From Anaerolineaceae bacterium (GTDB lineage: Bacteria; Chloroflexota; Anaerolineae; Aggregatilineales; Phototrophicaceae), in the NCBI GenBank assembly GCA_002699585.1, contig PABP01000009.1, positions 731,750 to 795,749 on the forward strand: 64,000 nucleotides of DNA. Reading direction: 5' to 3'. The notes beneath the pieces are model-generated. The model had not been told where the DNA came from and made no database searches. It saw only the letters and a list, made by a program, of their open reading frames with translations. Every line of letters starts with the position of its first letter. Within the stretch, counting starts at the first letter, position 1. This document shows positions 12,649 through 15,526 of the stretch, piece by piece. Made by a program: the position numbers and the translations under genes.

Positions 12649-12675
12649 AGTTATGGTTAGGCTAAGGTTTTCACT

Positions 12676-12691
12676 TGTGACAAATATCACA
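12676..12691 (+). promoter_or_regulatory. CRP/FNR-family operator-like palindrome upstream of pckA
   Basis: The sequence TGTGACAAATATCACA is an exact TGTGA-N6-TCACA palindrome, the consensus of cAMP receptor protein sites in enterobacteria. Its centre lies about 64 bases before the start point predicted from the -10 element at 12736. That is close to the -61.5 position of class I CRP activation. Binding by a CRP-type protein of this organism is inference. Confidence 0.55.
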
Positions 12692-12732
12692 AAAATAACT
12701 TGCGAGTGTCAATAACACAGATTTCGTGCGTC

Positions 12733-12741
12733 TGGTATAGT
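12733..12741 (+). promoter_or_regulatory. Extended -10 promoter element of pckA
   Basis: TGGTATAGT combines an extended TGn with TATAGT, one base off the -10 consensus. No good -35 hexamer stands 16 to 18 bases upstream, which is typical of activator-dependent promoters and fits the palindrome at 12676-12691. The pckA start codon follows about 75 bases downstream of the predicted start point. Confidence 0.5.
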
Positions 12742-12822
12742 CTTTGTTGTATGGGCAGTTGGCCGCCCAACATTTTGACCGCAAAAGTTTTCCCAACCAA
12801 AAACCCATTGATGGAGGGGATA

Positions 12823-14436
12823 ATGTACGCCAAACCGCATGTCCATAGTTCTGTTGGCCTGGATGAAGTAGGCCTCAAGTCTGCTGACGTAAGGGGTGTT
12901 CACATTCACTGGAATCTGAACCCTGCCGAATTGTACGAACACGCCGTTCGTAATGGCGAAGCCGAAATTACGAAAGACGGTGCAATCCGCGTCCTGACAG
13001 GTCAATATACAGGTCGTAGTCCTAAGGACAAATACTTCGTAGAACAATCTCCCTCAAAAGAAAAAATCTGGTGGGGTGATATCAACCAGCCGTGCTCAGC
13101 CGAGCTATTCGACCACATGCACGAAAAAGTCCTGGGTCACCTCAGCCATGCGCGTGATCTCTACGTTCACGATGCCTTCTGCGGCTCCGACGAGCGTTAT
13201 CGCTTGCCCATCCGCGTCGTCAGTGAAGTGGCTTATCACGCACTTTTCTCTTGGAACATGTTCGTTCGCGCGACACTTGAAGAACAGGCCAACCACGTTC
13301 CTCAGTTTACTGTGCTCGCTGCCCCGCGCCTGATCGCCCGCCCGGATGTAGACGGTACCCGTACCGGCACCTACATCGGCGTTAACATTGAAAAGCGCCT
13401 GATCGTTATCGTTGGCACGATGTACTCTGGCGAGGTCAAGAAGGGCATCTTCTCGATCATGAACTACCTGCTGCCAGAGCGCAATGTGATGCCGATGCAC
13501 TGCTCGGCCAATATCGGCAATGATGGCAACACGGCTGTATTCTTCGGCCTCAGCGGCACGGGTAAGACCACGCTCAGTGCCGACCCGGAACGTACCCTCA
13601 TCGGTGACGATGAACACGGTTGGTCAGACGAAGGTGTCTTCAACTTTGAAGGCGGCTCCTACGCCAAGACCATCAACCTGAGCGAAGAGCAGGAACCGCT
13701 CATTTACGCGACGACCAAGATGTTTGGCACCATCCTAGAAAATGTGCCTTTGAACGATGATCGTTCACCTGATTTTGACGATACGCGCTATACGCAGAAT
13801 ACGCGCTGCTCTTACCCGCTGCACTTCATTCCGAACGCCAGCGAAGACAACAAGGGCGGCGTGCCTAAAGATGTCGTCTTCTTGACAGCCGATGCCTTCG
13901 GCGTCTTGCCACCAATCAGCAAGCTGACGCCCAGTCAGGCTATGTACCACTTCATCAGTGGCTACACCGCCAAAGTCGCTGGTACAGAGCGCGGTGTCAC
14001 CGAGCCGCAAGCGACCTTTAGCGCGTGCTTCGGCGCACCCTTTATGCCGCTACACCCGACTGTTTATGCTGAACTGCTCGCCGACAAGATCAAAGAAAGT
14101 GGCGCATCCGTATGGCTGGTCAACACTGGCTGGACCGGTGGCCCCTATGGCGTCGGCAGCCGCATGAAATTGTCCTACACGCGCCGCATGGTCAACGCCG
14201 CCCTCAATGGTGAGCTGGAAGACGTCGAATTTGTGGAAGAACCCTTCTTCGGCCTGATGATCCCGACCGCTGTCGAAGGTGTTCCTTCAGAAATCCTGAA
14301 TCCCCGCGCGACCTGGGAAGATGGCGAGGCCTACGACGCACGCGCCCAGCAACTGGCCGAGATGTTCCGCAAGAACTTCGTCCAGTTTGAAAGCCAGGCC
14401 AGTGAAGATATCCTCGCCGGTGGTCCGAAAGCATAA
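12823..14436 (+). CDS. pckA: ATP-dependent phosphoenolpyruvate carboxykinase
   Basis: This enzyme converts oxaloacetate and ATP to phosphoenolpyruvate, CO2 and ADP, the entry step of gluconeogenesis. Characteristic motifs are LTGQYTGRSPKDKYFVE near residue 65, KRLIVIVGTMYSGEVKKG near 192, the P-loop GLSGTGKTTLS near 243 and IGDDEHGWSDEGVFNFEGG near 260. Its 537 residues fit the ATP-type enzyme. An upstream frame to 12700 exists, but the ATG at 12823 has GGAGGGG eight bases before it. mdh follows on the same strand, so the two oxaloacetate enzymes sit together. A CRP-type palindrome lies upstream. Confidence 0.97.
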   Translation: MYAKPHVHSSVGLDEVGLKSADVRGVHIHWNLNPAELYEHAVRNGEAEITKDGAIRVLTGQYTGRSPKDKYFVEQSPSKEKIWWGDINQPCSAELFDHMHEKVLGHLSHARDLYVHDAFCGSDERYRLPIRVVSEVAYHALFSWNMFVRATLEEQANHVPQFTVLAAPRLIARPDVDGTRTGTYIGVNIEKRLIVIVGTMYSGEVKKGIFSIMNYLLPERNVMPMHCSANIGNDGNTAVFFGLSGTGKTTLSADPERTLIGDDEHGWSDEGVFNFEGGSYAKTINLSEEQEPLIYATTKMFGTILENVPLNDDRSPDFDDTRYTQNTRCSYPLHFIPNASEDNKGGVPKDVVFLTADAFGVLPPISKLTPSQAMYHFISGYTAKVAGTERGVTEPQATFSACFGAPFMPLHPTVYAELLADKIKESGASVWLVNTGWTGGPYGVGSRMKLSYTRRMVNAALNGELEDVEFVEEPFFGLMIPTAVEGVPSEILNPRATWEDGEAYDARAQQLAEMFRKNFVQFESQASEDILAGGPKA

Positions 14437-14474: not shown

Positions 14475-14502
14475 TCAGGGATTGGGTAAACTCAATCCCT
14501 GA
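14475..14502 (+). terminator. Perfect 10-bp stem between pckA and mdh
   Basis: TCAGGGATTG (14475-14484) pairs perfectly with CAATCCCTGA (14493-14502) over an eight-base loop. The following bases are T-rich but broken (TTTAATTGATATTGTT), so termination would be partial. It may separate pckA from mdh or act as a processing or stability element that lets the two be expressed at different levels. Confidence 0.5.
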
Positions 14503-14539: not shown

Positions 14540-15526
14540 GTGAAAGACCCCATCCGTGTAGCCGTAACAGGCGGTGCTGGCCAGATCGCATACAGCCTGC
14601 TGTTTCGCATCGGTAATGGCGAAGTCTTCGGTCCCGACCAACCCGTTATCCTTCAAATCCTTGAAATCCCGGAAGCTCTCGGCGCGCTACAAGGCGTCGT
14701 AATGGAACTTGACGACAGTGCCCAACCGCTGGTGCAAGGCATCGTCGCCACTGATGATCCCAACGTTGCTTTCAAAGATGCCAATTGGGTCGTGCTTGTC
14801 GGCGGTAAGCCCCGTGGTCCTGGCATGGTTCGCGCTGACCTGATCCGTGCCAATGGTCCGATCTTTGTCGGCCAGGGTAAAGCCATCAACGATAACGCCG
14901 CTGACGATGTTCGCATTCTCGTTGTCGCTAATCCTTGTAACTCCAATGCGCTTGTCGCTATGCACAACGCCCCTGACATCCCCAAAGATCGCTGGTTCGC
15001 CATGACGCGCCTCGATGAAAATCGTGCTCGCGCCCAGATCGCAGCCAAAGCTGGCGTCAAGACCACCGATGTGACCAACGTCGGCATCTGGGGCAATCAC
15101 AGCGCATCCCAGTTCCCCAACTTTGAGCAAGTTCTGGTTGAGGGCAAGCCCGCGACAGAAGTCATCGACGACCGCGACTGGTTCGAGAACGACTTCCTCA
15201 CGACCAATCAGGGTCGTGGTAAAGCCATCATTGAAGCGCGTGGTAAGAGTTCAGCTGCTAGCGCTGCCAACGCCGCCCTGGATACCATTCGTTCGCTGGT
15301 TAACCCGACGCCTGAAGGCGACTGGTTCAGCGCTGCCGTTATCTCCGATGGCAATCCTTATGGCGTCGAAGAAGGCATCATCTATGGCTTCCCGCTGCGT
15401 AGCACTGGCAATGGCGACTGGGAAATTGTCGAAGGCCTGGACATCAGCGACTACGCTCAGGGCAAGATCACAGCGACCCAGGATGAACTCGTGGGTGAGC
15501 GCGAAGCAATCGCTGACCTGATCTAG
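14540..15526 (+). CDS. mdh: Malate dehydrogenase (NAD-dependent, MDH type 2)
   Basis: The enzyme interconverts malate and oxaloacetate in the citric acid cycle. The N-terminal nucleotide-binding fold is [20 protein letters not shown]. The substrate-binding arginine loop is [20 protein letters not shown] follows, and the catalytic His is in [15 protein letters not shown]. The 328-residue length and these motifs fit the cytosolic-type/Thermus-like MDH rather than the lactate-like group. The start is a GTG at 14540 with AAGGAG seven bases upstream. It lies 103 bases after pckA and is followed by a strong terminator. Confidence 0.96.

Follow-up and report, generated by a model that had tools for sequence, protein, structure and literature searches.

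A probable CRP-type operator upstream of pckA in an Anaerolineaceae bacterium and a candidate regulator with a non-canonical ligand pocket

The window analysed here is a 64-kb stretch of DNA from an Anaerolineaceae bacterium (Chloroflexota). It carries the genes for phosphoenolpyruvate carboxykinase and malate dehydrogenase, preceded by a palindrome and promoter elements:

12675-12692, no strand: putative CRP-type operator TTGTGACAAATATCACAA, an exact palindrome that is kept 5' of pckA in relatives
12712-12717, plus strand: weak -35-like hexamer ATAACA with an 18-nt spacer (promoter scan)
12733-12741, plus strand: extended -10, TGG-TATAGT (promoter scan), whose distance to the operator is kept in 7 of 10 genomes
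12823-14436, plus strand: pckA, ATP-type phosphoenolpyruvate carboxykinase of 537 aa with its start codon, ATG, at 12823 (PF01293, PEPCK_ATP, 726 bits; NF006820 and TIGR00224 above cut-off)
14540-15526, plus strand: mdh, malate dehydrogenase, the next gene 3' of pckA (NF003916 above cut-off)

The initial annotation of this DNA had pointed out an exact CRP-type palindrome before pckA, and the sequence bears this out. Positions 12676-12691 read TGTGACAAATATCACA, an exact TGTGA-N6-TCACA, that is, the TGTGA inverted repeat with 6-bp spacer of CRP-type sites. This 16-bp core lies inside an 18-bp palindrome of perfect mirror symmetry, TTGTGA-N6-TCACAA. No second exact 16-mer occurs in the window (shuffle mean 0.01), and further matches to the 18-mer, found there once two mismatches are allowed, do not exceed chance. 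A genome-wide search for further TGTGA-N6-TCACA sites, proposed as a check, was positive: the 6.70 Mb in 42 contigs hold 14 exact 16-mers, part of them intragenic, versus 3 in a reversed control. For the 18-mer with at most one mismatch the corresponding numbers are 37 and 4. A promoter-like match on the minus strand (TTGACA, 18 nt, GATATT; 12683-12712) overlaps the palindrome. It is probably a chance match and, if used, would transcribe away from pckA.

The start point of pckA is predicted at about 12746-12749. A start upstream of the palindrome would have counted against the initial proposal; judged by the predicted -10, the start would lie downstream of it. The centre of the palindrome (12683.5) is 52.5 bp upstream of the -10 hexamer and would lie at about -64.5 if this hexamer begins at -12, which agrees with the distance of about 64 bases originally given. 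The extended -10 on the plus strand stands as annotated; the accompanying statement that the promoter has no -35 was nearly right, the scan giving a weak ATAACA. Downstream, mdh is possibly co-regulated with pckA, and the two genes are also adjacent in G001, a genome of the same genus, and in G015 (3 of 30 loci in total). Between them we noticed a perfect 9-bp stem (CAGGGATTG / CAATCCCTG) with an 8-base loop and a T-rich tail at 14476-14501. It may attenuate read-through from pckA into mdh; the terminator scan did not have this stem among its reports.

Nine matches to the cNMP-binding domain were found in the genome. A Pfam scan of six cNMP-binding proteins detected a Crp helix-turn-helix in five (L016, L017, L019, L020 and L022) and no such match in L018. 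The recognition helices read GTVPDVLNR in L016, ATDADKVER in L017, NTTPQTISV in L019, GTTLETVNR in L022 and GTTREVVGR in L020. L020 (231 aa; C28:670596-671288, minus strand) is thus the only one of the five HTH-bearing CRP-family proteins found that has the R-E-x-x-G-R helix of the CRP pattern. The stretch TREVVGR is kept in 28 of 30 L020 orthologues with loci; L226 has S for T, and in L206 the second V is A. CRP of E. coli recognizes TGTGA through R180ETVGR185 (PMC11253593). The nearest solved relatives of L020 by sequence are GlxR and MtbCRP (E 6e-24 with phmmer, 2e-30 with a profile), and Foldseek with a moderate L020 model (pLDDT 81.9, pTM 0.56) returned Thermus CAP first, followed by GlxR and MtbCRP. 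As for autoregulation, the best score upstream of L020 in its own genome was 6 of 11, and no clear site was seen among the 30 orthologues.

The proposal of CRP-like control had been made to depend on a CRP-family protein in the genome, of which several, including L020, are present, and on conservation in relatives. The latter was examined in 41 genomes (the own genome and 40 relatives), 24 of which have pckA. We inspected the upstream regions of 30 of the 36 pckA matches, namely those with loci, the second copies of G027 and G034 being outside the set, and scored a site when at least 10 of 12 consensus positions agreed within 450 bp upstream of pckA. Ten genomes have such a site (G000, G001, G004, G009, G010, G012, G015, G016, G023 and G024); the best upstream scores in the remaining pckA genomes are 7-9 of 12. 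All ten carry an L020 orthologue (at least 57% identity). Among the genomes with both pckA and L020, all from the window's family, the site is kept in 10 of 12, or in 9 of 12 if G015 is excluded, whose site scores weakly (shuffle p 0.03) and departs from the clean CRP type. G003 and G022 have pckA and L020 but no site, and none of the 12 pckA genomes that lack an L020 orthologue has one. Fisher's p for site versus L020, calculated by hand, is about 3e-5; this value ignores kinship, the 12 L020 genomes being one family. The footprinting supports a real operator upstream of pckA at the level of sequence. In 80 pckA relatives, mostly from other phyla, the exact 16-mer occurred in one locus, L104, where it lies some 2 kb beyond the gene, and no footprint was seen. 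A second PEPCK paralogue with 38% identity is encoded in G000 (C7:1048787-1050322; L117/L122), and a palindrome, TTGTGACAAAAATCACTA, lies about 0.6 kb before the matched part of this paralogue.

The distance between site and promoter is also kept. Measured between the centre of the site and the first base of a -10-like hexamer, it is 52.5 bp in G000, G004, G012 and G024, 53.5 in G001, 51.5 in G009 and 50.5 in G010. Seven of the ten sites therefore fall within 50.5-53.5 bp (mean 0.8 over all distance windows; 0 of 2000 shuffles at any of them). With the hexamer taken to begin at -12, these seven operators would be centred at -62.5 to -65.5 relative to the predicted starts, upstream of the core promoter and thus in an activator-like position. 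A survey of four genomes covered 91 site-gene arrangements. Seven strong -10s put the site at -62.5 to -65.5 versus 1.7 expected (0 of 500 shuffles), and three of these seven belong to pckA. Exactly -41.5 was observed three times versus 0.48 expected, with 4 of 500 shuffles as high. The sites before ndh, before a carboxymuconolactone-decarboxylase-like gene and before a citrate-type transporter are at -41.5. This peak would carry no weight had the position not been known in advance: -26.5 reached five strong -10s, and some position reached three in 278 of 500 shuffles. Before the carboxymuconolactone-decarboxylase-like gene there are two palindromes 22 bp apart (L124:3188 and L124:3210; C28:10687 and 10709), at -41.5 and -63.5 from TACAAT.

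For the regulon outline we retained genes that adjoin sites in at least two of four genomes:

pckA: site in G000, G001 and G009
ndh with divergent purH: site in G000, G001 and G009
hoxE-like gene: site in G000 and G009
CitMHS-family transporter gene: site in G000 and G009
DoxX protein gene: site in G000, G009 and G015
UDP-glucose dehydrogenase-like and SCO-like genes (names assigned by eye): site in G000 and G001

The composition resembles a carbon-redox set more than one for sugar uptake. The carbon control suggested by the initial annotation would be at best a part of it, since several of the accompanying sites are at respiration and redox genes such as ndh and hoxE. A match at an aldehyde dehydrogenase gene (TTGTGAAAATCTTGACAA and a variant, three genomes) was rejected as a regulon member because it looks like a -35 box. 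We also observed a CRP-type site 5' of a gene for a Fur regulator-FeoA domain fusion protein (L115, C7:543226).

Which protein uses the pckA site can be weighed from the half-sites and from the company they keep. A Rex operator was the reading first prompted by the Rex gene and the sites at ndh, hoxE and rex. NADH-sensing Rex would bind TTGTGA-N6-TCACAA and, at low NADH, repress pckA, perhaps with mdh, as well as ndh and a Hox-like diaphorase. The genome does encode one full-length Rex, exact 18-mers flank ndh and hoxE too, and sites at ndh, hoxE and rex are what is typically seen for Rex. Moreover, CRP-type palindromes lie directly 5' of rex in G000 (TAGTGATAGTTATCACGA; L131, C23:849206-849223) and G001 (ATGTGATGCTTATCACGA; L171). 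They are compatible with rex being controlled by L020 as well as with a looser autoregulation of Rex, and a link between the two regulators via these sites is possible; the rex promoters of relatives mostly have the half TTTCACAA (rows picked by eye). Rex operators (TTGTGAA-N4-TTCACAA; given as TTGTGAAW4TTCACAA in the part of PMC2883068 available) share the outer halves TTGTGA/TCACAA with the pckA sites, but differ at half-site position 7. The A of the Rex operator is found there in none of the 16 half-sites of the eight clean pckA sites (without G015 and G016), all of which have C or T (TGTGAY), as do 17 of 20 when all ten sites are included. Rex is present in 74 of 81 relatives, yet pckA sites are missing wherever L020 is missing. 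In 49 genomes of the window's family, 38 with and 11 without L020, the motif excess is 3.13/Mb versus 1.01/Mb, that of the TGTGAY subset 1.08 versus 0.21 and that of the Rex-type subset 0.68 versus 0.32 per Mb. Both motif types drop without L020, with the greater contrast for the CRP type, in a comparison that contains few independent losses and ignores kinship. The GC content of the three L020-lacking genomes for which it could be estimated (0.57-0.59) overlaps that of the L020-bearing ones. For Rex, absent from only 5 of the 49 family genomes by tally, motif number versus presence gave p 0.085. Finally, Rex is a repressor, and an operator at a fixed distance 5' of the core promoter is unlike that of a simple repressor. 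The TGTGAY half-sites, a motif excess that tracks L020 and the position of the site made us drop Rex as the lead reading; we keep it as the main rival and regard it as rather unlikely. A chance palindrome without function seems very improbable. The reversed control predicts about three exact 16-mers genome-wide, and the intragenic copies would fit chance, but the site is kept 5' of pckA in relatives with a fixed spacing to the -10.

The initial annotation had spoken of cAMP/CRP-like control, and the cAMP part of this is not supported. In 30 of 30 L020 orthologues, NP[YFV][NS]A replaces the PRTSSA phosphate cassette, so that the arginine and serine/threonine by which a cAMP receptor is recognized are lacking in all of them. 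Across an alignment of 18 L020 sequences, C43, F77, N78, D84, G85, N88 and P89 do not vary; in L227, a sequence outside this alignment, C43 is replaced by S. L020 thus has a conserved pocket, though one that departs from the canonical cAMP site. A true cAMP-CRP site would require an unusual mode of cAMP binding by L020, or another cNMP-type regulator, for example L017 with its PRTGT pocket, that binds both cAMP and the site. The nearest solved relatives of L020, GlxR and MtbCRP, are cAMP receptors, and a PRT-type pocket sequence is kept in L017 and L018. However, N-P-[YFV] stands where R-T-S would be in L020, the HTH of L017 does not contain an R-E-x-x-G-R helix, and L018 lacks the HTH match. 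We therefore consider this reading slightly less likely still than Rex.

Several known systems resemble the arrangement proposed here. With the cAMP-CRP operators of E. coli, where pckA is a CRP target, it shares TGTGA-N6-TCACA, the R-E-x-V-G-R recognition helix and the placement of sites, class I-like near -64 and class II at -41.5, here relative to predicted starts. It differs in the L020 pocket without the cAMP arginine, in co-targets that are mainly redox genes and in an operator centre (-64.5) about 3 bp off the classical class I position of -61.5, known from E. coli lac. GlxR of Corynebacterium and CRP of Mycobacterium tuberculosis, the best PDB sequence matches, also have R-E in the recognition helix, but keep GPRTSSA in the cAMP pocket where L020 has NP[YFV][NS]A. 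DdrI of Deinococcus radiodurans is a CRP-family protein that binds TGTGA-N6-TCACA without cAMP; its helix ends in T-K, not G-R (available part of PMC11253593), and it is set beside L020 by description only. RedB was rejected as a relative, its motif being given as a non-palindromic AT-rich 12-mer in the accessible part of PMC9603854. The Chloroflexi collection of RegPrecise 3.0, as far as its description was accessible, comprises 5 genomes and 30 regulogs and may already contain a prediction of a similar regulon. CRP/FNR sites have been sought in a reactor microbiome with Anaerolineales genomes (PMC8510549), and pckA is not named in the accessible parts of that paper. A literature search in one library, with the terms used, returned no paper on a CRP-type pckA operator in Chloroflexota.

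What was computed directly is the site with its conservation and half-site type, its fixed spacing to the -10, and the sequences of helix and pocket. We consider it likely that the palindrome serves as a CRP-type operator and that a CRP/FNR-family dimer bound to it, most likely L020, activates pckA; here we infer the binder, the activating effect and the nature of the signal from sequence. The L020 dimer would bind the palindrome, its recognition helix T-R-E-V-V-G-R reading both TGTGAY half-sites. Positioned near -64.5, it would act like a class I CRP and assist RNA polymerase where the promoter combines an extended -10 with a poor -35. Since L020 lacks the phosphate-binding arginine, canonically bound cAMP is probably not the signal, which may instead be another ligand, or binding may be ligand-free. 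Of the cAMP/CRP-like control originally proposed, the CRP-type part is thus retained on account of helix, half-sites and spacing, and the cAMP part is not.

More tentatively, and with somewhat less than even confidence, we suggest a family-wide CRP-type regulon in Phototrophicus-like Chloroflexota, in which the CRP DNA code has been kept, the cAMP pocket has been replaced by a different pocket that is strongly conserved, and gluconeogenesis is joined to NADH and hydrogen metabolism. If true, this would give a phylum with few worked-out regulons a CRP-style operator of the textbook kind, with both class I-like and class II spacing, and a named regulator for it. L020 would then be a case of a CRP-family protein that has retained the CRP DNA code and lost the contact to cAMP.
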